Positions 2 through 23,287 of a stretch of DNA of 25,107 nucleotides are shown one piece after another. Position 1 is the first letter of the stretch; each line of letters opens with the position of its first letter. A program made the position numbers and the translations under genes. Location: positions 1-25,107 of IMG/VR virus record IMGVR_UViG_3300001450_008740; one strand, written 5' to 3'. The notes beneath the pieces are model-generated. The model worked only from the letters and a program-made list of their open reading frames with translations, did not search any database and was not told the DNA's origin. This DNA comes from a virus.

Positions 2-889
2 AGTGGACCGCATATCTTCTCGATCGGTTCTACATGGAAGCGACACTTCCAACCCGCAATGCGTATCGTTGACATCCAGTCACACTATGATCTGTGTCTC
101 GGTGATATTATCCTCACTGGTTATTCTCATCTTGTGTCGAATCTATCGACATCTCGTCACGGTTGGCATCTCGATGACGATGGTACACCACCACCAAAGA
201 GTGGAGTCCATGTAGACTTGGTCCAGACTCACACTGGTGGTAAAAATGATACCAAAATTGTTCAGGAGAACATCATCATTCGGTATGTTACTGAGTGGGA
301 TCGAAATGGTGGACAACAATTGTTCGGTTCGTTCGGAAGAAACGATCTAGAGGAATCTGAATTCAGAAACTTTGCGTTCGTAGGAAACCGAATCGCTCAG
401 TGGGCAGGTATCGATGACGAGAACTACCCCGGAGTTAGACGTGAAGATGGTAGTCTTGTCGTTGGACGAGCAAGAATGTTTGCATGGGGTGTACACAACA
501 CTCGCAACTGCTTGTTCCAAGACAACATCATGTTCGGTAAAGGTAACTGGAACGGTATTGAAACCAAGAACAAGTACACAGGAGAAGAAGTCGAAGTCCA
601 ATACCCATTTGAAAATGGTTACGGATCTCCCATGTACACCAACGTCATGTGGCGAGACAATTATCGTACACCAGATAAGGAAGAGTATTTCATGCCGACT
701 CCAGATGCTACATCAGGACAGGGAAGTGGTACACCGGAGGAACTTCGATTCGATCCGGAAACGATGACCTTGCCTTGGACGAGTCCTGCTACGGGTGTTC
801 ACTATGAAGGAGATGCATCTAAGTTAGCAAGTCACAAATGGAATGACTACGCCAACAACGATGATATACTAGAGAAGTGGGATAAGTAA
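2..889 (+). CDS. Right-handed beta-helix protein, 5'-truncated (tailspike/polysaccharide-lyase-like)
   Basis: The reading frame is open to the left edge, so the N-terminus lies outside the window; the visible part is about 295 aa and ends at TAA 887-889. Seen: short asparagine- and glycine-rich strand-turn units such as ENIIIRYVTEW, FAFVGNRIAQW and CLFQDNIMFGKGNW, alternating hydrophobic strands with polar turns, plus a GVHVDLVQTH segment resembling the HxDxxQ turn of pectate-lyase-like beta-helices. The last 90 residues lose this rhythm and look like a C-terminal cap or domain. Known: this fold is common in phage tailspikes and depolymerases that bind or cut surface polysaccharide. Inference: a virion or secreted polysaccharide-interacting protein. 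No catalytic residues can be assigned, and a non-enzymatic structural role is possible. An ATG at position 59 is internal to the frame and probably not the start. A strong terminator follows directly. Confidence 0.6.
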   Translation, partial: SGPHIFSIGSTWKRHFQPAMRIVDIQSHYDLCLGDIILTGYSHLVSNLSTSRHGWHLDDDGTPPPKSGVHVDLVQTHTGGKNDTKIVQENIIIRYVTEWDRNGGQQLFGSFGRNDLEESEFRNFAFVGNRIAQWAGIDDENYPGVRREDGSLVVGRARMFAWGVHNTRNCLFQDNIMFGKGNWNGIETKNKYTGEEVEVQYPFENGYGSPMYTNVMWRDNYRTPDKEEYFMPTPDATSGQGSGTPEELRFDPETMTLPWTSPATGVHYEGDASKLASHKWNDYANNDDILEKWDK

Positions 890-998: not shown

Positions 999-1757
999 AT
1001 GATGTCAAAAAACAAACTAGTAGCATATGCAGTGAGCTTGCTAGTCGTCATGAACCAACTCTCAGGCTGTTCTACATTAGAAAAGTCTTCACAAAAACCC
1101 ACAGAAAATCAAACAGAATCACCACCAGAATTTAAACCATTCATCCCTCTTGATGATAATGCGTTTGGTTTTGTAGGATCTCTACGTCGTTCAACAGGTA
1201 AAGTTCTAGGTTCCGCTGTTCTGATAGAAACAAATGTTGCACTTACTGCGGCGCACTGTTTAATTGATACCGATATTTCATACGTAGAATTTGCTGGGAA
1301 AAACTACCCAATCGACTACACCATATGCTACGAAGACGGAACACATATAAACCACGACATTGGGTTAGTATTTCTAACAGAAAATGTTATTGGAGTTAAT
1401 CCAGTTAGCAGAATTGATGACGTTATTAGTAGCATAAAAAAATGGGATTATGTTACAACAATTGGCTACTCTAGGGGATTTAAAAAGGCATCGTCACTCA
1501 GCACATTTCGATACTACGGTGTTCTATACAACGAAGAAAATCAAATCAAGATGCTACCACATAATGGGAGTATCTGGTTTGGTGACTCTGGTGGTGGTTT
1601 ATTTTGGTTTGGTCCCAAAGGATTTCAATTAATAGGAATCCTAATCAGCTTTTCACAGATTGACGGAACAATCATAGAAAATTCATCTACTCGTGTTGAT
1701 TGTTATCAAAATTGGATAGATCACGAAATAGAGAAGAATAAAGAATTAAATTCTTAA
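999..1757 (+). CDS. Trypsin-like serine protease with lipoprotein signal peptide
   Basis: Predicted to be exported, lipid-anchored and proteolytic. Seen: residues 1-24 form a signal peptide (Lys4, Lys6, a hydrophobic stretch, then a lipobox L-S-G-C24), with Ser25 at +2 as in lipoproteins sent to the outer membrane. Residues 25-55 are a Ser/Thr/Pro/Glu-rich linker. The S1 (chymotrypsin-fold) triad is complete: LTAAHC (His86), HDIGLVFL (Asp120) and GDSGGGLFW (Ser197 with oxyanion glycines). The length, 252 aa, is normal for a single-domain S1 protease. The start is ATG 999; ATG 1002 is the alternative. No purine-rich Shine-Dalgarno sequence precedes either, unlike almost every other gene here. 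The gene overlaps the convergent RuvC-like gene by 4 nt. The family call is firm; the substrate and its role in infection are unknown. Confidence 0.88.
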   Translation: MMSKNKLVAYAVSLLVVMNQLSGCSTLEKSSQKPTENQTESPPEFKPFIPLDDNAFGFVGSLRRSTGKVLGSAVLIETNVALTAAHCLIDTDISYVEFAGKNYPIDYTICYEDGTHINHDIGLVFLTENVIGVNPVSRIDDVISSIKKWDYVTTIGYSRGFKKASSLSTFRYYGVLYNEENQIKMLPHNGSIWFGDSGGGLFWFGPKGFQLIGILISFSQIDGTIIENSSTRVDCYQNWIDHEIEKNKELNS

Positions 1758-2320
1758 ATCATAGTATATTTTATATTATCATATAAACACTTACAAACAA
1801 AATACGCATCAACAATATCTGATACGGGGTTAGTTACGCCTGTTTTGTCTGGAGTTATAATTTTAGCTAGATTATGAGTTGTTTCCCGGTGAAAAGCACT
1901 GTGCATGTCAGCTTTATTTGCATTACCTTTCCCACAAGCTCTCTTCTTAACTTCAGACGGAGTTATAACTTCTACTGGAATATTATTCTGAAAGAATTTA
2001 TATTTTAGTATGCCAGTATTTTCTGCAATATGGAATACTCTACCCTTTGCACCATAGGCATATCCCTCTAAACCAACTTGATCACAACCATAGCAAACAT
2101 CGGCTGCCCATGCGGAAATTGTATCATATCGTTCACAGTCGTGATTATATTCTTCAAAAACACTACCATGTATATTTGACAAAAAAGTCTTTGCATATTT
2201 TTTAGTATCTGTAAGATAGTAAAATTTACATTTATTAAAAGAGAAAGTATCGGTAATTTCTCCCCTATAAACACAAATTGCTGGACCACACAATGAATAA
2301 TCGATTCCGGCTATTAACAT
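1754..2320 (-). CDS. RuvC-like Holliday junction resolvase
   Basis: Predicted to cut branched recombination and replication intermediates before packaging. Seen: an RNase H-fold pattern with acidic residues in RuvC order. These are Asp7 in IAGIDYSLCG, Glu85 in GLEGYAYG, and the C-terminal SDIVDAY with Asp168 and Asp171. Between them are the RuvC-type segment IAENTGILKY and PSEVKKRACGKGNANKADM, which resembles the VKxxxxGxGxAxK region of RuvC. The 188 aa fit the family. The start ATG has an AGAAGG Shine-Dalgarno about 6 nt upstream. T4 itself uses the unrelated endonuclease VII (gp49) for this job, so this may be its functional substitute (inference). It overlaps the end of the protease gene tail to tail by 4 nt. 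The fold is likely; substrate specificity is unproven. Confidence 0.75.
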   Translation of the reverse strand: MLIAGIDYSLCGPAICVYRGEITDTFSFNKCKFYYLTDTKKYAKTFLSNIHGSVFEEYNHDCERYDTISAWAADVCYGCDQVGLEGYAYGAKGRVFHIAENTGILKYKFFQNNIPVEVITPSEVKKRACGKGNANKADMHSAFHRETTHNLAKIITPDKTGVTNPVSDIVDAYFVCKCLYDNIKYTMI

Positions 2321-2376
2321 AATTTTTCCTTCTAAGTAGTTATATTAAATAAATACATCAAAAGAGGAGAAATAAA

Positions 2377-2451
2377 ATGCCAGTAATTAATATCACTAGA
2401 AAAAGTATTCGGTACAAAATAAAGAACATCAAGAGAGTATATTCGTATTAA
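2377..2451 (+). CDS. Tiny basic ORF (24 aa), hypothetical
   Basis: An ATG preceded by a near-ideal Shine-Dalgarno (AGAGGAG, 6 nt upstream) opens a 24-codon frame, MPVINITRKSIRYKIKNIKR followed by VYSY, ending at TAA. It is strongly basic (about 8 Lys/Arg, no acidic residues). It is divergent from the RuvC-like gene, and its stop lies just before the hairpin that ends the porin transcript on the other strand. No family is recognised. It could be a genuine small peptide, a leader peptide, or the decayed start of a lost gene. The main support is the ribosome-binding site, so confidence is low. Confidence 0.35.
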   Translation: MPVINITRKSIRYKIKNIKRVYSY

Positions 2452-2482
2452 AAATAACAAGAGGGGACTAACGTCCCCTCTT
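2449..2482 (-). terminator. Rho-independent terminator of the porin transcript
   Basis: Read on the minus strand, a perfect 10-bp stem (AAGAGGGGAC with GTCCCCTCTT, plus-strand 2459-2482) with a 4-nt loop is followed by a U-rich tract (TTGTTATTTTTA). It sits about 50 nt after the porin stop codon. On the plus strand the hairpin is not followed by a U run, so the polarity is minus. Confidence 0.85.
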
Positions 2483-2533
2483 GCACACGGATAGAGGGTG
2501 ATCCAACCCCCCAGTATAATATAACTTTATATA

Positions 2534-3562
2534 TTAAAAGCTAACAGTCAACATGCTCTTGATGAGATACTGTCCGTCAGTGGTGGAAGTTTCCCATCCA
2601 GTATTGGTAAGATCATACCCAGAATCGACTGCGTTTAGCGCATACCCGAAAGAGTTGGTCCACCTTACATTGGAATTAAAGATAACATTCGCACCAATAG
2701 TAGCGAGATTTAGATCCGAATTGACGCCATCCATGACACCATATTCGTACTGACCAAATAGCTGTACGTCATGGCTAAGAAGATAGCTGGCAGTACCAAC
2801 GACAGAATAATTACTCCAACTGTCGTTGACTCGGTTCGACGCAACATAAGCAGCATCAAACTTAAATTCGCCACACTCTACACCAGCATCAAACGTAAAG
2901 CTATCGTAACTATCGGTAGCAGTCTGTTCGTTTGCAAATGCACCACCAAGAGTGATGTTCTCAAAACCATCATATTCTACGCGTCCACTAAGTCCGTAGT
3001 CATTGTCACCAAAGCTACTGTTGTCAGTGTTAAAACCATCATTGTATGATGCGTAGAAAGAAAAATCATCGAAGCTCTTGCTGACTTCGATACCCTGTGA
3101 CCAACCTTGGCCATATGTGAGGGCTGTGACAGTATAGTCACCAGTGACAAGCGTGGTTGGATCAGAGACGTACCCGCTATAGAAGCTGGTAACGAACTGC
3201 CCCGCCTTCACATCAAAACCACCGATGTTCTTACTGAGGAAAGCATCCTTCAGTACAAACTCGGTGTCACTCCACTGACCACTTACTCCATAGTCAAATC
3301 CATAAACCTCACCCGAAAAGGCAATTCGAGCACGATCAATGTCAAATCCCCGAGTTGTTTCGTTTGATCCACCAGCGTTCCATAGATAACGGAACTGAAT
3401 GAAACCAGAAACATCCACGGTGACGGGAGATTCTTCAGACTTGAGACTCATGTGAGTCATCGAGTCTTCGCGAACACCCATGATAAGCTCATGGACATTT
3501 ACGTTTTCGGCTGCACCAGTCATAAGAGGTGCAGAAAGAAGTACTGTTGCGATATTAATCAT
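2534..3562 (-). CDS. Outer-membrane porin, phosphate-selective porin O/P-like
   Basis: Predicted 342-aa outer-membrane beta-barrel channel. Seen: a hydrophobic N-terminus with an Ala-Ala site near residues 17-18, then DVSGFIQFRYLWN (50-62). Next comes FDIDRARIAFSGEVYGFDYG (73-92), LKDAFLS and VKAGQFVTSF, the order found at the start of OprP/OprO-type porins. Alternating aromatic amphipathic strands follow, and the protein ends in Phe342, the usual C-terminal signal of outer-membrane barrels. The start is well fixed: AAAGGAGAT precedes the ATG and an in-frame TAA lies five codons upstream. The signal peptide is odd because its first 20 residues have no Lys or Arg. The gene is 21 nt downstream of the 64-aa membrane protein and shares its transcript. 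The substrate is unknown; phosphate selectivity cannot be claimed from the sequence. Confidence 0.82.
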   Translation of the reverse strand: MINIATVLLSAPLMTGAAENVNVHELIMGVREDSMTHMSLKSEESPVTVDVSGFIQFRYLWNAGGSNETTRGFDIDRARIAFSGEVYGFDYGVSGQWSDTEFVLKDAFLSKNIGGFDVKAGQFVTSFYSGYVSDPTTLVTGDYTVTALTYGQGWSQGIEVSKSFDDFSFYASYNDGFNTDNSSFGDNDYGLSGRVEYDGFENITLGGAFANEQTATDSYDSFTFDAGVECGEFKFDAAYVASNRVNDSWSNYSVVGTASYLLSHDVQLFGQYEYGVMDGVNSDLNLATIGANVIFNSNVRWTNSFGYALNAVDSGYDLTNTGWETSTTDGQYLIKSMLTVSF

Positions 3563-3583
3563 AGTAGATCTCCTTTAGTGGCT

Positions 3584-3778
3584 TCAGCCACCCCAAGTAG
3601 TAACTGAGTCCCAGATGGTTGCGATCGCATCTCGGAACCAGAGGACACCATCCCATGCGAATGGGACAAGGGCGAGACTGATGAGGAGGGATCGGGTAAT
3701 TCCAATCTTTCCAAGCCAGCTCTGTACAAAATCTTTACCGCAACCTGCGGCGGGGCAATCTCCAGTAGTTTTACTCAT
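3584..3778 (-). CDS. Small membrane protein with CX4C motif, hypothetical
   Basis: Not recognised. The frame is open from further upstream (ATG 3829), but the start at 3778 is preferred because AAGGAGAAACCT precedes it, giving 64 aa. Seen: Cys8 and Cys13 in DCPAAGCGKDF, an amphipathic stretch to residue 27, one hydrophobic segment at about 28-48 (ITRSLLISLALVPFAWDGVL), then a Trp-rich C-terminus ending TTWGG. It probably spans the membrane once. It lies just upstream of the porin on the same strand, so co-expression is likely. It could be a holin-like or envelope-modifying protein, or a metal-binding small protein; none of these can be shown. Confidence 0.7.
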   Translation of the reverse strand: MSKTTGDCPAAGCGKDFVQSWLGKIGITRSLLISLALVPFAWDGVLWFRDAIATIWDSVTTWGG

Positions 3779-3853
3779 AGGTTTCTCCTTGTATAAGAGT
3801 ATAATGTGTCCATGCTCCGACGAACACACTGGATTAATAAAAGTTCTATTGTA

Positions 3854-5818
3854 TCATGAATTAGTTGTTAAGTCAACTACTTCACATGAATTTCCTGAAC
3901 AAGCAAACGTCTGCGTTCCCGCTGTATTGTCTTCTTGTTCGTACTCTCCCAATCTACTCCAATCCACATCTTGTGGCATGGAAGCTAAAAGTTCTTTGTA
4001 CTCTTCATCAGTGCAATCCTGATAAGGAGCTTGTCTATATGTATGATCCGAGAATGGTAAGAATGATACACCGGAGACATCATCAAAATGTTCCCACACC
4101 CATGCCCCAACTTCCATCCACTCAGACTCTTTGACTGAAACGGTTATTGATGGTTTGTGTTCACACCAAAACTTCTGATACTTTAACCAAAGTTCCAGTT
4201 GTTCTAGCGCAGTAAGATCCATACGGAACACTGCATTTTTTGGTGCCTTCATTGGGAATGAAAATACCATTGTATGTTCTGGCTTCATCACATCAGGTTC
4301 ACATGGAAATCCAATTTCATCCATAAATGTACATAATGGATCTTTGATATCTGCACGAACAGTACGAATATAATTTGGGTTATGTCGAGCATGAATCCCA
4401 GAAGCAGCGTCAACTAACTGAGAGACAGTTCCACTAGGTTTTACGCATGTAATAGCAACAGATTCATTTATTCCAATATTCTTTGCTGTCTTCTTGTTCT
4501 CTACTATTGCGGTAGTCTTCAGATGCGTTAGAAGCTCTTCTAGTCCCTTAGACTTACCGTTAGTGAGCTTACAATCCATGATACCTGTCATTGATACACC
4601 AAGAAGTCGTTCATCTTCACAATTACGTTCCCACTCACTTGACAGATACTTAAAGTTAGTTAGAGTTGACTGCCAAGTTCCCAGAATCGTAGCAAGACGC
4701 ACTTTGCGTTCAAGGGATTCTTTCGTATCGTCTCCACGCACAACAATCTCGGTGAGGTTACAGAATTCTTTATCACGGAGAATGATCTCACTACATGGGT
4801 TGGTACCAAATTCATGATCAGTTTCTCGCAATCGATAACCATCACCCATAGATTCTCTATGATTATTTGCATGTTCAATTTGTTTCTTGGCCGCATCTCG
4901 ATTGAAGATACCACGCTCACCGGACTTACTCTTGTAGAGTGAAACCCATTCCTCCATAAACGTACCAATCTCAGGCTTCTCTCTATATGCTACTGAATTA
5001 TTCGATAATGCTCTTTGTGGGTCGGAAACCCACCACTGTCCGTGCTTCGCATCACGCATCCGTTCATCGGTAAGCGACGAGAGTGAGATAAGGGCACTTC
5101 TTCGTACTCCCCCAACCACGACAATTTCAGCAATCTTACAGATGACATCATGACACTCGATTGATGTGAGTTTTCTTCCAGCAGCTTTCTGATAGGTATC
5201 CACCGTGAATCGGAATAAATCGTCCAATGGCTCCGGACCCGAAGCTCTACCACCGAAAGTTTTGAGTTTTGCTCCGGCAGATCTAACTTTAGATAAGTCC
5301 CATTTCGGAATCTGACCTCCAATAAGAAGGGAGTTGAGTTCCTTATATGCTTTAGCCCAACCCATCTTACTATCCTGTACAACAATGGTCGTATCACTAT
5401 CTTCAAATTCTTCTGCAATTGTAGGAAGTTTCTTAAGGAAATCACGTTCGACACTAAACCCAACACCAGTACCACACATAAGTACATATAAAATTTCATC
5501 AAAGGCACGAACTCTACCTGAACTAGCAAAGGAACAATTATATCCTGCAATGTTGTCTCGCTTAAGAGCTTCTCCGGCCGTCATGAGTGCTCTCATCGAA
5601 GGCATGACTTCTAGGTTAAGAACAGCAGTTTCGAGTTCTTCTCGTTCCTTCTTTGATACATTGTAATTATGAAACTCCTTAAGGTGTTCCTCAAAGAAGT
5701 TAAAATAACGACTAACAGTTTCAGACCAAGTCTCTCTCCTGCCTATTTCCGGTAACCATCTAGAGTAACGGGATAGGTGAATAAACGACTGATATAAACT
5801 TGGTAACTCTGTACTCAT
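3854..5818 (-). CDS. nrdJ: Adenosylcobalamin-dependent (class II) ribonucleoside-triphosphate reductase, monomeric
   Basis: Reduces ribonucleotides to deoxyribonucleotides using a thiyl radical generated from adenosylcobalamin, independent of oxygen and without a small subunit. Seen: redox Cys95 in AGYNCSFA; NPCSEI with the expected thiyl-radical Cys342 and catalytic Glu344; the second redox Cys353 in EFCNLTE; GGVRRSALISLS (236-247); CVKPSGTVSQLVDAASGIHA (458-477); and a C-terminal CX4C (Cys640, Cys645) that would shuttle electrons from thioredoxin. The pattern matches Lactobacillus-type monomeric RTPR, though at 654 aa it is shorter than the 739 aa of that enzyme. GGAGA lies about 8 nt before the ATG. 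No thioredoxin or B12 gene is in the window, so both must come from the host or elsewhere in the phage genome. Confidence 0.93.
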   Translation of the reverse strand: MSTELPSLYQSFIHLSRYSRWLPEIGRRETWSETVSRYFNFFEEHLKEFHNYNVSKKEREELETAVLNLEVMPSMRALMTAGEALKRDNIAGYNCSFASSGRVRAFDEILYVLMCGTGVGFSVERDFLKKLPTIAEEFEDSDTTIVVQDSKMGWAKAYKELNSLLIGGQIPKWDLSKVRSAGAKLKTFGGRASGPEPLDDLFRFTVDTYQKAAGRKLTSIECHDVICKIAEIVVVGGVRRSALISLSSLTDERMRDAKHGQWWVSDPQRALSNNSVAYREKPEIGTFMEEWVSLYKSKSGERGIFNRDAAKKQIEHANNHRESMGDGYRLRETDHEFGTNPCSEIILRDKEFCNLTEIVVRGDDTKESLERKVRLATILGTWQSTLTNFKYLSSEWERNCEDERLLGVSMTGIMDCKLTNGKSKGLEELLTHLKTTAIVENKKTAKNIGINESVAITCVKPSGTVSQLVDAASGIHARHNPNYIRTVRADIKDPLCTFMDEIGFPCEPDVMKPEHTMVFSFPMKAPKNAVFRMDLTALEQLELWLKYQKFWCEHKPSITVSVKESEWMEVGAWVWEHFDDVSGVSFLPFSDHTYRQAPYQDCTDEEYKELLASMPQDVDWSRLGEYEQEDNTAGTQTFACSGNSCEVVDLTTNS

Positions 5819-5890: not shown

Positions 5891-8800
5891 CTAATATCCA
5901 TACCCACCAGATGATGGTGGTGACATTGGTGGTGGTGACTGACGTGGCGGTGATGACTGACGTGGTGGTGGTGACTGACGTGGTGGTGTGGGCGTCGATG
6001 GAGTCACCGGATCAGGTTCTGGTGATTTGGTTTTTGTAGCTACACTTGACAGTTTAATGCCCGAACTAAGTGATATAACCTCTCTATCAGCGGATGTAGC
6101 GTTATCTCCAATAATACCAACGCGAGCTTGAGTAACATCACGATCAATTGGTCCACGAGAAGGATACCACACCAAACTATCCGAATCAGCAACCCTATAT
6201 GACATTGCGCGAACAGTACCGTCATCCAGAACAATGTAATATATGTCTGCGTGTGCGGCCGCATATTCAATTTTTCTTCCTGATTCATCGTTCAAATTTG
6301 CATCTAATATGGTTAAATTTGCAGAATTCATAACATATGTGCTATCACGTCTATATTCTCTACCCAAAGCATCTGGATATGGAATACACTCTAAATTATC
6401 TTGATTGATAAAGTTTCTTTCATTAATTCTATTTGGAACCCTAAAATCCTTTAGGAAATTGGGATCATTTCGCAATTCATCTGGAATATTATTTGATAAT
6501 TGACCTGAGTTTGCCCAAAATGAAAAGTTCTTTTTAATGTCGATCAGAGGATTACCCTCTGCATCAAACAAAGATGGATCTAATATTCGCTCTGAAGCGT
6601 TTCCACCCAATGCTTGATCGAATACATCCCAATCAATTTCTTCATTGTCTGGATCATCTGTACCAAAAAAGTTAGCTTCGAGAGCACCATACTGCTGTCC
6701 ACCCTCAGATTCACCTTGTTGAGAAAATCCCCTGTAGTATGGATGAAGCGCACCCGATTCATGTGCTGGTATTCCGGGTAGGTATGGTGGTTGCATTGGT
6801 GTTGGATTATCGGCTGGTCCGGGTTCTGCAAAAGGTGTAATACTCGGGGGATTGCAAAATCCGGGATAACAGACACTCCCCTGAAATAATTGCCCTCGAC
6901 TCGCATAAATAGATCCGATCATAGGAATACCGTCAGGGTAATTTGAATCTGTTTTAGATGGGTATATTTTACTGTCCCAAGTATTGAGGATTGGGTTAAA
7001 TAAACCATTGGCTCTATTGTTTGGGTTTAATTTAAAGTTGTTTAAATTGCCTCGGTTAAAAAACAGATTCCAAAATCGAATGTCATCATATGTCCTCCAT
7101 GGTTCATAATCAGGAACAACATTTACACCTCGCGGCTTAAAATATACCGGGTGTGGTACTGTAAAGAAATCTATATCTACACTATCACCAAACTCAAAAC
7201 TTCCTGGTCCAGCAGATAAAAATGGTTCAGCAAATTCCACACCTTTCCATTGTTTTGCAGTTATGTAGGCAATCTTATCATTATTCGAGTGAATTACAAT
7301 GCCAGATCTAGTACCCCCAATGTTTCTGGGTGGAATATAATGTCTATTCCCACCTTCTGTCCTAACAAATAATTTTTCATAATTAACTGGATCAAAAGAT
7401 GTTGTTTTATCGGGATTGTTTGTTGCATTTTCGCGGTATCCCCATAGAGAATCATCTAGTGGATCAATATCAGGAGAGTATACATGTGTGGTCAATCTCG
7501 GAGACAACTTTTTCGCAAGCGAATTTATTAGATTAGCATTATCGAGTTGCATGACACCAAGGTGCATAATACCAGGCCTATAATTTGGAACGACCTCATC
7601 ATCACTAATAACCAAAGGACTTAAACCACCATTTGGAATACCATAAACAACAGTAGAAAGATGTTCGAATGTATCACTCATTTGATAAACAGGGCATCTT
7701 TCGCCATTTGAGTCTTTTGGTATTTCCCTCAATGATGCTGTTAGAAACCTAAGAATCGAATTATCTTCGTGAATCGGAGAGTTTGTTTCCGGATCAATCA
7801 TTATACTTTCAGGTCTTGTGTAATCTCTATACTTAGCAGCAACCCGGTGTGGATCTCCATTCAGAATAAGTCGAATGAATTCATCGTTAACCCGCTTATC
7901 ATAAATTGGTAGATCTTCTGCGTTTGGATCAGTTGGATCTGATGGTAGTGTATATCCAATTTCAATGAAAGTTCTTTGCATATCAACAGTTATCACTCCA
8001 TCAAACCCAAGCCCTGGCGATGATGTCAAAAAACCACCGCCGTCTTGTGGAATATGACCAGCTTTCATGTACAGCGGATCTAGATCAGAATTGGGCACAC
8101 CATTCGAATCATATGAACTGTACTTGGTCCTCTCTATAAATCTAGAATAAGATTGCCCCGTGTCTGGAATGGAAACTGTTCGCAAATTTGGAGAAATTGT
8201 GCTCTTAATTTCACGAGCATAAAGCTTACCGTTATCATCAATTGCGAATACAGTAACTCCCTCACCAGTAAGAGTACTACCTACTGCTTGAACTGATATA
8301 AACACAACATCTTCGGTATCAACTAAATGTCCGCTATCATCCATCCAAAAATACTTTTCTGAACTCATATATGGGAACGAATTTAAATCCAACGGAACAC
8401 CATTAGAATCCAAATGTTCTGACCAGTCTACTTTTCTATATTTCTCTGGGTACCATATGAAGAAATTCCTAACGAATGATTTTTCAGCACCGTATGATGT
8501 AGTTGAAGCGTTCGGTGTGGTGTTCGATAGCGGAGTACAATTAGATAGAACATGAATCTTACCCTCTTCATCTAAAAGAATAGCAAGTTCATTACCGGCC
8601 ATGGCCATTGATTTTATTTTTAAATCTTCATCGTAATATTCAACTGCTGATGCTAAATGAGTATAGTTAGGATTACCCGACTCATAAACGTCTTTAAATT
8701 TTTCATTTAAAAATAATCTAAACAAGTGGCCAATATTCGCAATGGGTTCTGCCAGATATTTGGTTATTCTATCAGTATAATTTAAACCTAAAGATGCACT

Positions 8801-9664
8801 TTCCTCATCTCCAGTCCAGTCAACAGGCTCTGCTACAAATTTTTCTGATGCTGGATTGAAAATAGAATGATATTCGATACCCTCTGTCTGTACGCCTTTT
8901 TTGTTAAATAGATATTTGTCGAATAAAGATAATAAACTAAAAATTGGTGGTTGCAATGCAAATGAGTATGCACTACTTACCTGTTTTATTTTACCCTCTT
9001 GATCTACATACAAACCATTATCAAAACCAGTCGAGAATGTTTGCTCTTTTGCGTCTTGAATTTTTCCAGTGTCATCATTTCGGTAAGATCCATACTTATA
9101 AAAAGTAGGTCGTTTTGGTATTCTTTCTGTTAAAGTGACTAGATCAGGAAGTTCACTACTAGCCAGTTCAGGTAGAGCTAGATTATATGTTCGTCTCACC
9201 ACAGGGCTACTTTGATCGTAGATCAGATTAACTCCGGGTATCGTCTGTATAGATGATAGATCACTAATCGTGGCGACATTTGACTCGTATGAGCCATTAG
9301 GCACGAAATCAGCATTACCATCAGAATTACCATCAAAACCAAACATATCAAAGTTAGTCTCGTCAGCTCCCAATTGTTTCTTGTTGGTTGTCGCGGCACC
9401 AGCTAAACCTATTAATTGAAATAAACCATGTGAATTTTCCAATGGGGTTGGCCAACCAGTCCCACTTGCAATACCACCATCAAATCTATCTGAGAACAAA
9501 CTAAGACTATATTCACTCTGACTAGAATCGACTGAAGTCGGATTATCATTCAGCAGAACTAATCCACCATAAATATCACCCTCAACATAGCGTTTTAAGA
9601 TAAGCTGTGGGTTCTCGATCTCTGCATCACCACCAAGTCCACCATGTCCAAATGTATGTACCAT
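5891..9664 (-). CDS. Very large virion-type protein with RCC1-like segments and proline-rich tail
   Basis: Unrecognised 1257-aa protein, probably a virion component judged by size, neighbour and the late-promoter match upstream. Seen: a Gly-rich start (MVHTFGHGGLGGDAEI). At least three segments with the cadence of RCC1/beta-propeller blades follow: AMAGNELAILLDEEGKIHVL (about 354-373), VTVFAIDDNGKLYAREI (about 470-486) and AAAHADIYYIVLDDGTVRAM (about 1135-1154). Weaker DxxGK segments lie near 220 and 440. Much Asn/Asp/Pro-rich sequence separates these. The last 44 residues are low complexity: PPRQSP/PPRQSS repeated three times, then MSPPSSGGYGY. There is no signal peptide. AAAGGGG precedes the ATG, and the gene is 11 nt downstream of the 156-aa gene. 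It could be a tail appendage or adhesin; the beta-propeller reading is an inference. Confidence 0.65.
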   Translation of the reverse strand: MVHTFGHGGLGGDAEIENPQLILKRYVEGDIYGGLVLLNDNPTSVDSSQSEYSLSLFSDRFDGGIASGTGWPTPLENSHGLFQLIGLAGAATTNKKQLGADETNFDMFGFDGNSDGNADFVPNGSYESNVATISDLSSIQTIPGVNLIYDQSSPVVRRTYNLALPELASSELPDLVTLTERIPKRPTFYKYGSYRNDDTGKIQDAKEQTFSTGFDNGLYVDQEGKIKQVSSAYSFALQPPIFSLLSLFDKYLFNKKGVQTEGIEYHSIFNPASEKFVAEPVDWTGDEESASLGLNYTDRITKYLAEPIANIGHLFRLFLNEKFKDVYESGNPNYTHLASAVEYYDEDLKIKSMAMAGNELAILLDEEGKIHVLSNCTPLSNTTPNASTTSYGAEKSFVRNFFIWYPEKYRKVDWSEHLDSNGVPLDLNSFPYMSSEKYFWMDDSGHLVDTEDVVFISVQAVGSTLTGEGVTVFAIDDNGKLYAREIKSTISPNLRTVSIPDTGQSYSRFIERTKYSSYDSNGVPNSDLDPLYMKAGHIPQDGGGFLTSSPGLGFDGVITVDMQRTFIEIGYTLPSDPTDPNAEDLPIYDKRVNDEFIRLILNGDPHRVAAKYRDYTRPESIMIDPETNSPIHEDNSILRFLTASLREIPKDSNGERCPVYQMSDTFEHLSTVVYGIPNGGLSPLVISDDEVVPNYRPGIMHLGVMQLDNANLINSLAKKLSPRLTTHVYSPDIDPLDDSLWGYRENATNNPDKTTSFDPVNYEKLFVRTEGGNRHYIPPRNIGGTRSGIVIHSNNDKIAYITAKQWKGVEFAEPFLSAGPGSFEFGDSVDIDFFTVPHPVYFKPRGVNVVPDYEPWRTYDDIRFWNLFFNRGNLNNFKLNPNNRANGLFNPILNTWDSKIYPSKTDSNYPDGIPMIGSIYASRGQLFQGSVCYPGFCNPPSITPFAEPGPADNPTPMQPPYLPGIPAHESGALHPYYRGFSQQGESEGGQQYGALEANFFGTDDPDNEEIDWDVFDQALGGNASERILDPSLFDAEGNPLIDIKKNFSFWANSGQLSNNIPDELRNDPNFLKDFRVPNRINERNFINQDNLECIPYPDALGREYRRDSTYVMNSANLTILDANLNDESGRKIEYAAAHADIYYIVLDDGTVRAMSYRVADSDSLVWYPSRGPIDRDVTQARVGIIGDNATSADREVISLSSGIKLSSVATKTKSPEPDPVTPSTPTPPRQSPPPRQSSPPRQSPPPMSPPSSGGYGY
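5926..5990 (-). repeat. 18-bp tandem repeat coding PPRQS(P/S)
   Basis: TGACTGACGTGG recurs on the plus strand at 5936, 5954 and 5972, exactly 18 bp apart, with similar GGTGGTG flanks. Read on the minus strand it encodes three hexapeptides PPRQSP, PPRQSS and PPRQSP in the C-terminal tail of the 1257-aa protein. Such repeats can change copy number by slippage. Confidence 0.8.
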
Positions 9665-19399: not shown

Positions 19400-20808
19400 G
19401 ATGTTGTAGTATACTCCACACTAAAGATAACATCAGTAGCAGATGAATTACTCGAAGTAACAATACTCATAGTTGCTCCTGCTGAAACAGAAGTATTACC
19501 CAAGGAACTCTGAACTCCGCTCGTAGTGCTCACACTAGCAGCTTTAACTGTGGCGGCTGCATTTTTCAAAGTCGCTGTCACTGTACCAGAACCAGATTTA
19601 ATGAAATAGCCAGTAATTGTTCTTGCTGTCGCTGGTGATGGATCGATAACATATGTTTTATCCGAAGCAGTTTCAATTTGACCTGTGTATGAATCAGTTC
19701 TAGTGGCAGTCACCAACCCAGTTCCATCAGCAAAAGTAATCCCTCTGTTACCTAGTGTTACACCAAGAGCTTGGATAGTTCCGGTTGTAAGTGTTGCAAC
19801 ATCGGGGCGGAAGAATAATCCTTCAGAAGTACTACCACTGTCAGTCTTCAATCCAAGCGAGACTGATCCTGATGCGGAACCCGCAGCAAAAGGAATTCTA
19901 TATTGTGTGCTATCATCCACAGCAGTAACTTGTACATTATTCGCAATAGTCGCTGTTGATGCGGTGCTTGCCGAAAGAGCGACAGTCGCTGTACCTACCA
20001 TGACACCGCTAGAAATCAGAACCGATCCAACCGTGGACGCACCACACGATATACCACTAGACTCTACTAACCCTGCAAACGTGGCTCCTGCTGCTGCGGA
20101 TATACCAGTAAGGATTTTGAAGTCCCCAGCATTCACTTCTAGTTTTCTTTGGTTAACATCAAAGCTAATTTGCTGCGACGAATCATCAACTACAAGTTTT
20201 GTGCTGGAACCACCATCTTCGGGATCACCCAATGATACTTTATTATTACTCTCGACTTTAATTAAAGGCTCATCAGCACCAACTTGAATACCATTAGCAT
20301 TTGCCATCACAGCATTTCCAGTGAGTTGTAGAATACTAAATGTTGCTCCCTTGTCACCCGACACACCACCAATGAAGTGGGTTCTACCAGTTACGTCCAA
20401 TGCACCTGTAATATTAACGTCACCACTGTGGTTGACGATACCACCAAAGGTTGCTCCACCATCAGAGGAGATACCTGCTAGATGAATATGTGGTAATATA
20501 TTCCGTGCAAGAACACTACCAGTCAAACCATCAAACGAACCAACCCCAGTAACTGAACCAGTTAACCCATTAAATGAACATACAACATCAACCACATCAC
20601 CTGTGTTCCCACATACAGAAGAAACACCAATTACATCACCGGTAGCTCCATTGAACGAGTCAACAACGTCACCACCGCTGTGACCATGATCACTATCTGT
20701 TGTAGCTTTATCCCACGCAGAGCCGTTCCATACCCATGACTTAGCTCCTATTTGGTGCGTAGTAACATTGGTAACTAAATCATTTACTGGAAAGTTTATT
20801 GCAACCAT
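19396..20808 (-). CDS. Tail-fibre-like structural protein with repeated NGxTG and GATF motifs
   Basis: A 470-aa protein. Seen: an N-terminus INFPVNDLVTNVTTHQIGAK followed by SWVWNGSAWDK, the F-P...G-x-x-W-x-W-N/D-G-x-x-W opening used by many phage fibre proteins. Then come repeated SFNGATGDV, SFNGLTGSV and SFDGLTGSV units (about 50-100), repeated GISSDGGATFGG-like units (three copies up to about 245), and a long Ser/Thr/Ala/Gly-rich body with short beta strands. This composition fits trimeric beta-structured fibres. The start overlaps the collagen-like gene stop (TAATG). No receptor-binding domain can be identified. Two short cysteine-containing stretches (SSVCGNTG, VVCSFNG) near residues 60-85 are unusual for this protein type. 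Confidence 0.7.
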   Translation of the reverse strand: MVAINFPVNDLVTNVTTHQIGAKSWVWNGSAWDKATTDSDHGHSGGDVVDSFNGATGDVIGVSSVCGNTGDVVDVVCSFNGLTGSVTGVGSFDGLTGSVLARNILPHIHLAGISSDGGATFGGIVNHSGDVNITGALDVTGRTHFIGGVSGDKGATFSILQLTGNAVMANANGIQVGADEPLIKVESNNKVSLGDPEDGGSSTKLVVDDSSQQISFDVNQRKLEVNAGDFKILTGISAAAGATFAGLVESSGISCGASTVGSVLISSGVMVGTATVALSASTASTATIANNVQVTAVDDSTQYRIPFAAGSASGSVSLGLKTDSGSTSEGLFFRPDVATLTTGTIQALGVTLGNRGITFADGTGLVTATRTDSYTGQIETASDKTYVIDPSPATARTITGYFIKSGSGTVTATLKNAAATVKAASVSTTSGVQSSLGNTSVSAGATMSIVTSSNSSATDVIFSVEYTTTS

Positions 20809-21989
20809 TAAATTTCAAACCATTCGTTAGTGTTTCTCATTCGTAAAACTCCACCGCCACTACCTGTATCGAACCAGAGTTCGCCCGTCATGACCTCTTT
20901 ATTTTCCGTAGATGGATCTGTATCAGAAATATACACAGGAGAACTGACCTGAACATCCTTTCCGTGTCTAGCTACATCAATATTTATACCACGGAATTTT
21001 ATGTCACTAACAGAACCAATCAAAAGTCTACCGTCTTTTTTAATTCCAACTGCACCACCACCACCAATAGCGGTGAGTAGGTTATTAATTTCCAACCCAG
21101 ATAAATTAGAAGTTCCTAACTTTGCTACAACTCTTTCTATTGCTTTTTCATCTAAATGTAACTTACCAGTCGAATCTTCATACTTTAATGGAAATTTTAC
21201 TTTTAGTTTTGGTGATTCTCCATCTTGTCCACGCACACCCGGAGATCCTACCGATCCACGTTCTCCCCTATCTCCTTTGGGCCCCTTAGCACCAACATTT
21301 CCTTTGAGACCTTTAAGTCCACGATCACCTTTATCACCCTTTGTGCCATCTTTTCCGGGTAATCCATCGATCCCATCTTTACCATCATTACCGTCAGTAC
21401 CGTCAGCACCATCTTTACCCGGTGATCCATCAACTCCATCAACACCCGGAATACCTTGCGATCCTTCTATGCCCGGTAGCCCGGGTTCACCTTGATCTCC
21501 TTTGGGACCAGGATCGCCCGGTAAACCATTGATACCCTGTGCTCCCTCTGGTCCAGGCTCTCCCTGTGGACCTTGCGGTCCATCTAATCCTTGCGGTCCT
21601 TCTACGCCCTGTTCACCATCATAACCGCGCATACCTTGCGGCCCTTCAGTTCCCATGACACCCGGATCCCCCTTCTGTCCGGGTGGACCGGGTAGACCGG
21701 GCTTTCCTTGAACCTGCTCAACCACCGGTCTAGATTTCTCAATAACCTCTTTGATTACCGGTGTTTGTTTTCTCTGAGGTTTGCTTTCATATACTACTTC
21801 TAGTACTTCTTTTATTGCGCGTTGGGGCCCCTGTAAAAGAAAAATTTCACCGTGATCATTTATAATATGCACTTCACCCAAACCAAACCCTAACGATATT
21901 CTAACGTCGGGTTCAGTCTGATTTATCTGTTCTACGATAGAACCAACTGATAAATTTTCATGTATGTTTTTAGCAACAATGAATTGCAT
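20808..21989 (-). CDS. Collagen-like fibre protein
   Basis: A 393-aa protein. Seen: residues 1-94 form a globular N-terminal domain ending in a charged helix ([15 protein letters not shown]). Residues 95-259 are 55 uninterrupted Gly-X-Y triplets, which form a collagen triple helix. Residues 260-393 are a C-terminal domain with [15 protein letters not shown], a Gly-rich turn [12 protein letters not shown] and [20 protein letters not shown]. There is no signal peptide, so it is cytoplasmic until assembled. Collagen-like stalks are known in phage tail fibres, where they act as trimeric spacers. The start overlaps the glycosyltransferase stop (TAATG) and its own stop overlaps the next fibre gene. 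The triplets are charge-segregated, acidic first then basic. Confidence 0.85.
20981..20988 (-). promoter_or_regulatory. Possible internal late promoter (TATAAATA)
   Basis: A second exact minus-strand TATAAATA lies within the collagen-like gene, about 173 nt before the start of the next fibre gene. It coincides with codons for Gly-Ile-Asn-Ile, so chance is possible. If used, it would boost expression of the downstream fibre genes late in infection. Confidence 0.3.
21213..21707 (-). repeat. Gly-X-Y coding repeat, 55 triplets
   Basis: A 495-bp stretch encodes 55 consecutive Gly-X-Y triplets. Triplets near the middle are rich in Asp ([19 protein letters not shown]), and those near the end are rich in Lys/Arg ([16 protein letters not shown]). 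The DNA has degenerate 9-bp periodicity, which makes copy-number variation likely. Confidence 0.9.
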
Positions 21990-23287
21990 TATCTACTCTT
22001 TACGGTTTTTTTCTTTCCCTTGGGAGAAGCAGTTTTGGTTGACTTTTTTACTCCCCGATTCTTTTTCTTTTCTAGCTTTTCTTCGATGTTGATTTTTTCT
22101 TTCTTGATCTTCTCAAGTTCATGATCAATATTATTCTTGAATTCATCAGAATGAATTGAACTCAAAACTTTTTCATACTCTTCGAAATTTTTAGCTACCC
22201 GATCCCTTGCTTCTCCTTCGGGTACCATATTATCCTCTAGTAACTTTTTACATGCAGAATAACCAACATGAGGCTTTCCGGCATAATATGCAGAAGCAGC
22301 AACTTCATCTAAGACGGACCAAGTATAAACATCTTCCTGAACAAAAAGTATATCATCCTGTGGGTATGGAATTTCAATGGCGTTTTTTGCAAATACATAA
22401 GCAATTGCAGGTCTACCATTCATTCTATTCAGTCTTGCTAGATGATATAGTGGTTCTGCTCTACTAGGTCTAGAAGCATGTGCCAAGAGAAATTTATCTT
22501 GTATTTGTTCGAATGGTTTACCCAGTAATGCATAAGCCATTGCAACTCGAAGTAAAGCAAAGAAGCACTCTTCTGGCCATCCACCCATCTCAGCTCGTTT
22601 CTGGTAGGCTTCTGCTGCCTTTTCCCATTGCTGTGAGTCAAAATAACTCTGAGCAAGGTAGAACTGATACCGAGCATTTTTTGGATCCTCTAGTAGTGCG
22701 TTTTTTAATGTCTCAGCATCACGAGAATATTTTTCCTTTGGGTCAATTCCTACGTTTCTTGCACCTTCAGTTCTTGCTTCGAGATGATATTCACCTCCAA
22801 GTTTACCAATCTTTGGATTTTCCATTCCAACACATTGTGCATATTCATGAAGTATACCTTCATACTTCCATCCACAAGACAATCTAAATATCTGATTTCG
22901 CCACCAACTAAAATCACCACGATGAATAAGCAAAGCATATGAATCTAGATCTAGATTACTAATATCGGGAGTCCCTACGATTTCATCGTCGGCATCAATT
23001 ACCCAAGCAAAATCAGCCCCGCTCTTCTCTGCGTATTGAAGTGATTCAGTTCTAGATCCCATTTTACCATTGTGATCACCAAAGCCTTTCCAGTCAGAGA
23101 GATAAACTTCACCCGGAACATTTAGCTCGTCCATGATTTCTTTAATTTTCTCTGGTGTACCGTCAGTTGATCCGGTATCAGTAATATCATAACGATCGAT
23201 GTAAGGGGCAATTGATTTTAGACATCGTTCAATGACGTGTGTCTCATCTTTTACGATCATGCATAGAGTAATTGTTGGTTTGTTCAT
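21989..23287 (-). CDS. GT-A (family 2) glycosyltransferase with TPR-like region
   Basis: Predicted to transfer a sugar from a nucleotide-sugar donor. Seen: a GT2 N-terminal domain with TITLCMIVKDETHVIERCLK (5-24), DTGSTDGTPEKI (37-48, nucleotide-binding turn) and WVIDADDE (95-102) with a D-A-D metal-binding motif. Residues about 195-305 have TPR-like helix pairs (ARYQFYLAQSYFDSQQWEKA; AEPLYHLARLNRMNG). The last 60 residues are a Lys/Glu-rich coiled coil and a basic tail (KKKNRGVKKSTKTASPKGKK). There is no transmembrane segment, so it is cytoplasmic. AAGGA lies before the ATG. Its stop overlaps the collagen-like gene start and it follows the sugar-nucleotide epimerase gene. It may glycosylate the fibre protein, DNA or cell-surface carbohydrate; the first is favoured by context only. 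Confidence 0.85.
   Translation of the reverse strand: MNKPTITLCMIVKDETHVIERCLKSIAPYIDRYDITDTGSTDGTPEKIKEIMDELNVPGEVYLSDWKGFGDHNGKMGSRTESLQYAEKSGADFAWVIDADDEIVGTPDISNLDLDSYALLIHRGDFSWWRNQIFRLSCGWKYEGILHEYAQCVGMENPKIGKLGGEYHLEARTEGARNVGIDPKEKYSRDAETLKNALLEDPKNARYQFYLAQSYFDSQQWEKAAEAYQKRAEMGGWPEECFFALLRVAMAYALLGKPFEQIQDKFLLAHASRPSRAEPLYHLARLNRMNGRPAIAYVFAKNAIEIPYPQDDILFVQEDVYTWSVLDEVAASAYYAGKPHVGYSACKKLLEDNMVPEGEARDRVAKNFEEYEKVLSSIHSDEFKNNIDHELEKIKKEKINIEEKLEKKKNRGVKKSTKTASPKGKKKTVKSR

Follow-up and report, generated by a model that had tools for sequence, protein, structure and literature searches.

The stretch of viral DNA considered in the present work (the window; 25,107 bases out of the 28,286-base viral record IMGVR_UViG_3300001450_008740) harbors two adjoining genes, which code for a porin and for a 64-residue small membrane protein, hereafter TM64. 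The comparison of related viral loci suggests that they represent a two-gene unit, kept together despite the exchange of the pore, by which the virus remakes the outer membrane of its host during infection. The original prediction had grouped them with a gene for a lipoprotein protease in a single envelope-remodelling island. All three genes are present (Table 1), and the ratio of nonsynonymous to synonymous substitution (dN/dS, NG86) is 0.06–0.31 for TM64, 0.09–0.20 for the porin and 0.07–0.30 for the protease; since these values reveal purifying selection, the three can be regarded as real genes. The island as one unit did not stand. The protease gene lies on the strand opposite to porin and TM64, is convergent with ruvC and falls beyond the porin terminator.

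The TM64 loci, dereplicated at 90% nucleotide identity, yielded 63 clusters, in 59 of which a gene for an outer-membrane barrel is the direct neighbor of TM64 (58 from the scripted count, plus L226, which carries a second type of barrel and was added by hand). Considering the TM-seeded clusters alone, the barrel gene adjoins TM64 in 43 out of 47 (42 from the scripted count, plus L062, added by hand, in which the locus ends within the porin). A further locus, L231, has a diverged TM64 after the porin; it fell below the cut-off and lies outside the 63 clusters. The scan seeded with the porin revealed an adjacent TM64 in 23 out of 25 cases, L111 being cut and L101 lacking TM64, and the one seeded with the second barrel placed TM64 directly upstream in 25 out of 26, the 26th being cut by the contig end.

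In principle, this pairing might be due to inherited synteny alone, that is, TM64 and the barrel gene might be unrelated genes embedded in a conserved region. Most loci do share the order thyX-nrd-TM64-barrel-ruvC, and for this reason many of the 63 cannot be counted as independent. Such an explanation appears quite improbable, however, as the pair survives two gene orders, two sites, the exchange of the porin and a second barrel family. The porin-first order was found in L011, L012, L102–L106, L108, L112 and L231, and these rows are not monophyletic in the porin tree, with two changes. In L081, L084, L086 and L090, the pair is preceded not by nrd but by a gp32-like gene (identified by eye). 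Moreover, the porin was exchanged under constant flanks: between L031 and L034, the identity is 91.7% for nrd and 78.6% for TM64 but 36.6% for the porin, and between the window and L020, it is 87.5% for nrd, 79.7% for TM64 and 74.2% for ruvC but 39.7% for the porin; in contrast, the window and L005 share 90.7% identity in nrd and 80.1% in the porin.

In 11 clusters, the porin is replaced by a member of a second family of about 257 residues. This family can be considered barrel-like on the basis of a signal-peptide-like start, a C-terminal phenylalanine and members matching both profiles (L217 and L213); it retrieved nothing credible from Pfam, and its structure prediction (mean predicted local distance difference test, pLDDT, of 30) was not used. 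Judging from the genomic comparison, TM64 and the porin very probably act together. The joint action proposed originally is therefore retained for TM64 and the barrel, which stay adjacent through the changes of order, site and barrel, and not for the protease, which is optional.

The TM64 family was collected by probing viral contigs with nine TM64 query sequences, which retrieved 98 relatives, of which 80 were retained. Among 52 members, nine residues are invariant (R29, A36, L37, P39, F40, W42, G44, V45 and W47). An alternative upstream GTG start, at position 3829, is not conserved across all relatives. The search of the same 52 members against PHROGs gave a best E-value of 0.043, with unnamed families. 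No TM64 was found in any of 397 genomes of the class Phycisphaerae; as a positive control, profile A2 recovered TM64 in all three virus records carrying it. Within the data searched here, the family occurs in viral contigs only. The synonymous divergence of TM64 between the window (3584–3778) and L010 (7784–7978) is 0.17, versus 1.40 for the porin and 1.32 for nrd. This low value is confined to the window clade and absent from the other clades compared, and for this reason we read it as probable recombination rather than as an overlapping element.

The porin of the window has no credible match in Pfam (no family at an E-value of 0.1) or PHROGs. Its relatives do match porin families, Porin_4 in 7 and Porin_O_P in 6 of 21 (E-value 0.01), and the C-terminal residue is a phenylalanine in all 40 representatives listed. 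The structure of the barrel rests on a relative, L090, rather than on the porin of the window: its AlphaFold2 model (384 residues, pLDDT 76, 21 sequences) has 16 strands; strands 5 and 6 are joined by a long segment equivalent to loop L3, and the helical part at the N-terminus is poorly predicted. Foldseek retrieved Omp-Pst1, OmpU, OprP and OmpC with this model, at E-values of about 1e-15 to 1e-14; probing the sequences of solved structures with the porin profiles gave no credible match. According to the family and the model, the original assignment as a porin is maintained, and the protein is very probably destined for the host outer membrane. In each of the 14 phage porins compared, the L3 region is 35 residues long, whereas the N-terminus, loops L1, L4, L5, L6 and L8, and turn T4 are on average shorter than in 12 host homologues. 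As for an arginine ladder of the OprP type, the window clade lacks the arginines that the coiled-coil clade has in the L3 region (sequence reading, alignment by eye).

The scan of a collection of 84,980 species with the porin gave two confirmed places, both in metagenome-assembled genomes of Phycisphaerae. Within this class, the porin profile matched 92 out of 198 genomes (best E-value 6.3e-78), and among 246 sampled genomes of the phylum, only five fell below 1e-30, all of them already included in the class sample. An N-terminal LV.(E/D)V(L/M)A(D/E)..R stretch is common to host and phage porins; in the porin tree, the phage sequences form one clade versus 14 host porins, with support of 100/99 (midpoint root, long host branches flagged). 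Since the closest bacterial relatives of the porin are found in Phycisphaerae (Planctomycetota), the host is probably a marine planctomycete, and we consider its assignment to this class likely. The first bases of the window (2–889) are the end of a gene complete in L002 (10674–12545), coding for a 623-residue protein with a dockerin-like repeat, SGDFNLDGKVNVGDLNYILANWG; a 533-residue protein in L066 ends with a similar motif. Dockerin-like repeats are common in planctomycete proteins, and the 623-residue protein may be a surface protein of host type that the phage carries.

In the window, the cassette is its own transcription unit, made up of promoter, hairpin leader, TM64, porin and terminator (Table 1). 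A promoter score of at least 10 out of 12 was obtained upstream of TM64 in 45 out of 55 relatives, versus 5.0 expected from shuffled sequences. The promoter of the window is unremarkable on its own, 20% of the shuffles equalling its score, and the promoter-like sites of the region are 7 versus 6.2 expected. Several cassettes devoid of a promoter (L041, L042, L051, L060 and L217) abut nrd.

The leaders of related loci (L081:5856–5982, L084:2834–2960 and others) have three to four hairpins before TM64, with folding z-scores of −4.9 in L081 and −5.7 in L084; a CGGAG loop recurs in several of them, and weak pairing of the Shine-Dalgarno sequence is frequent. Among 17 leaders from a single group, 8 out of 15 pairs have changes on both sides, and the covariation score (0.291) was reached by none of 500 shuffles, with slid controls not exceeding 0.074. 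Nine loci searched against Rfam gave no match for the leader. Model R1, built from these 17 leaders picked for likeness, matches 27 places in 46 sources (E-value up to 1); the matches of the 17 lie upstream of TM64 by construction, and those outside the training set that were compared with the gene table (L065, L076, L136, L139 and L140) end at TM64. In a 126-kb contig, there is a single match.

Table 1. Features of the TM64-porin cassette and of the adjoining genes, in window coordinates.
Feature	Position	Strand	Remarks
TM64, 64-residue small membrane protein	3584–3778	−	Cys-rich N-terminus, one hydrophobic stretch (by eye)
Porin, 342 residues	2534–3562	−	Hydrophobic signal-peptide-like start, C-terminal F
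Sigma70-type promoter	3848–3876	−	TTGACT-17-TACAAT, TG before the second hexamer; 69 bases before the TM64 ATG
5' leader	3779–3847	−	One hairpin plus a weak hairpin over the Shine-Dalgarno sequence; fold z −1.49, weak alone
Intrinsic terminator after the porin	2457–2484	−	12-pair stem, then TATTTTTAAT
Ribonucleotide reductase (nrd)	3854–5818	−	Upstream neighbor of TM64; 3' end overlaps the cassette promoter
RuvC-like resolvase	1754–2320	−	PHROG 159, E-value 2.4e-31; conserved neighbor
Lipoprotein trypsin-like protease	999–1757	+	Pfam Trypsin, E-value 6.8e-10, and Trypsin_2, 2.9e-6; lipobox-like LSGC

On this basis, we can depict the following possible scenario. The host RNA polymerase would transcribe the cassette from its own sigma70-type promoter and, because of this promoter, before or beside the late genes; early or middle expression is likely. 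The porin would then form an open channel of 16 strands in the host outer membrane and increase the uptake of small solutes for nucleotide synthesis, the cassette adjoining thyX and nrd, two nucleotide-synthesis genes. TM64 would reside in the inner membrane and aid the making, export or favouring of the phage barrel, a helper role to which we give an even chance. The maintenance of L3 together with the trimmed loops points to a working channel, and for this reason permeability was ranked first; that it is the purpose of the porin we rate at slightly under even. The whole explanation, a permeability-raising envelope module of T4-like phages infecting marine Phycisphaerae, is held tentatively, its chances being somewhat lower again.

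Superinfection exclusion was ranked close behind, since the barrel is exchanged and there is a precedent in which the transcript of a phage porin alters a host porin. According to this alternative, the phage porin replaces or dilutes the host porin serving as receptor for other phages, and TM64 prevents incoming DNA from crossing the inner membrane. The fact that the whole porin is exchanged, with TM64 and the flanks remaining constant, would agree with it, as would loops shorter than those of the host homologues, offering few docking sites, a promoter of host type and the occurrence of TM64 also without the porin; furthermore, PMC12197685 reports that host OmpC is controlled by ipeX, a porin transcript derived from a phage. 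On the other hand, the 52 TM64 members have no PHROG match better than 0.04, the dN/dS of the porin gives no sign of rapid change, and an extra porin usually represents an extra receptor. We consider exclusion unlikely, although it deserves attention as the first alternative.

A broader reading assigns to TM64 the role of constant core of a porin-takeover system, that is, a virus-only inner-membrane factor with which the cell would build its outer membrane with an exchangeable phage barrel, under the control of the structured leader RNA and with the displacement of the host porins. This appears improbable; if true, permeability and phage receptors would be changed together.

Several data weigh against the permeability scenario and the pairing on which it is built. 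Four out of 63 TM64 clusters (L030, L067, L079 and L088/L089) have no adjacent barrel, one of these barrel-less clusters belonging to phages of another type, and L101 and L232 have a porin without TM64. In the set of 80 nrd-seeded loci (nrd 63–75% identical; nearest relatives absent and some loci cut soon after nrd), just five, among the matches listed, harbor TM64 or the porin. In addition, no solute selectivity is visible in the porin, the L3-region arginines of other phages are lacking in the window clade (by eye), and a host already equipped with several porins might do without one more. The cassette is a marker of one portion of this group of phages.

In L067 (5332–6153) and L088/L089, phages of another type, TM64 occurs without a porin, overlapping or following a gene for a lipoprotein/TM protein and an XhlA-like gene. 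In L101 (4989–5972), the porin is flanked on one side by a gp23-like capsid gene and on the other by a tail-tube-like gene, and the 7.3-kb contig harbors no TM64. A role in lysis and release, with TM64 as a holin-like protein or spanin helper and the barrel opening the outer membrane late in infection, would be in line with the arrangement in L067, with the porin beside the capsid gene in L101 and with the size of TM64, which is that of a holin. The location of the cassette among nucleotide-metabolism genes, its sigma70-type promoter, and the presence in relatives of separate candidate holin and spanin genes, close by on the opposite strand (by eye), speak against such a role, which we regard as very improbable.

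The protease was correctly described as a lipid-anchored trypsin-like enzyme. Besides the Pfam matches, it has the hallmarks of S1 trypsin-like proteases (His-Asp-Ser triad, GDSGG and a lipobox cysteine), and C24 of the lipobox and the triad H86, D120 and S197 are invariant in 14 relatives. The idea that it is confined to near-identical viruses was rejected, as a wide family was found: the protease-seeded scan gave 187 relatives, of which 80 were retained, with flank classes counted by hand. Co-occurrence in relatives, set beforehand as the test of the island, was consistent for TM64 and the barrel and only partial for the protease. The porin or TM64 is in the flank of 24 out of the 80 protease-seeded loci, 40 have nrd and ruvC but neither TM64 nor the porin, and the others are cut or different. 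Furthermore, the protease is present in 20 of the 63 TM64 clusters, none of them with the second barrel or the porin-first order, and in 11 of the 80 nrd-seeded loci, among the matches listed.

A three-gene system, in which the protease would be a working partner of porin and TM64, could account for those 24 loci, for the 12 out of 47 TM-seeded clusters with a protease and for the loci (L036, L039, L040, L063 and L082) in which it lies directly downstream on the same strand. It seems rather remote in view of the 40 loci without TM64 and porin, its absence from all 10 second-barrel and all four porin-first clusters, and its position in the window, on the other strand behind the terminator. Since it is often found with nrd and ruvC in the absence of TM64 and the porin, and is missing from second-barrel and porin-first clusters, the protease is an optional, separate module of the same region and not an obligate partner of the cassette. 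Receptor clipping, another of the functions proposed, gained no specific support. In protease-bearing relatives without the porin, two proteins (L149:7662–8453 and L187:4282–4914) terminate with PEP-CTERM-like tails (ITPRRRNI), which fit planctomycete-type sorting signals.

The gene set of the window is T4-like (UvsX-like recombinase, DnaB-like helicase, DNA polymerase, primase, ribonucleotide reductase, ThyX and RuvC-like resolvase). The RuvC-like gene, already recognized in the original prediction, is probably outside the cassette; the 24-residue open reading frame reported beside it (2377–2451, plus strand) exists as an open frame, and no support was found for a gene. A 1257-residue protein (5891–9664), encoded between a 156-residue gene and nrd, has no Pfam or PHROG match; apart from the near-identical L002, only L005 (55%) and L099 were found to have relatives of it. 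A collagen-like tail fibre gene (20808–23287) adjoins a beta-1,4-glycosyltransferase-like gene (PHROG 13126). A near-identity DNA search of phage records gave short polymerase matches only, and a protein search of 50,697 phage records retrieved no TM64, porin, second barrel or protease; because the first three are absent, the cassette seems confined, within the data searched, to uncultured viruses.

If real, the system would place outer-membrane permeability under the control of these phages, offer a simple two-gene system for bench study and provide a marker for viruses of Phycisphaerae. These hosts have few described phages, one example from Planctomycetes being Phage-ZRK32 of a deep-sea planctomycete (21.9 kb; PMC10945688, in the accessible text of which the word "porin" does not occur). 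Our literature search for phage-encoded porins returned only three relevant papers (PMC8115048, PMC12197685 and PMC7188888); as subscription journals were mostly uncovered, the absence of others is weak evidence.

The cassette can be compared with several known systems. The closest bacterial relatives of the phage porins are the Phycisphaerae porins with an N-terminal coiled coil (L113 and L118–L129), which share the barrel layout; unlike them, the phage porins form a separate clade with a shorter N-terminus, T4 turn and loops, and the 397 genomes of the class, unlike the phage loci, carry no TM64. Lc/NmpC, the porin of the lambdoid phage PA-2, with a remnant in E. coli, is a phage-borne general porin of a temperate phage of enterobacteria that enters the host outer membrane and alters its porin make-up. 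The porin described here is likewise a phage-borne, general-type porin predicted for the host outer membrane; Lc/NmpC has no TM64, whereas here we find T4-like phages, a leader RNA and barrel exchange. T4 Imm is a small superinfection-exclusion membrane protein encoded among the early genes, and the small T4 immunity proteins block DNA entry. TM64, too, is a small membrane protein of a T4-like phage, but it has no detectable PHROG similarity, contains a single hydrophobic stretch and is linked to a barrel gene.

A table of PMC7188888 lists NmpC as "Prophage porin". A viral OmpL-like porin has been described in glnK-amtB-ompL contigs from oxygen-depleted ocean water and discussed among auxiliary metabolic genes, with no known substrate (PMC8115048). 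Like the porin of the present cassette, it is encoded in marine viral contigs by a gene that probably came from a host; unlike it, the OmpL porin is Bacteroidetes-like and linked to ammonium transport genes, and no small membrane partner is described in the accessible text. Phage-borne porins were already known, and what is new here is a dedicated small partner that outlasts the replacement of the porin, together with a promoter, leader and terminator of its own.

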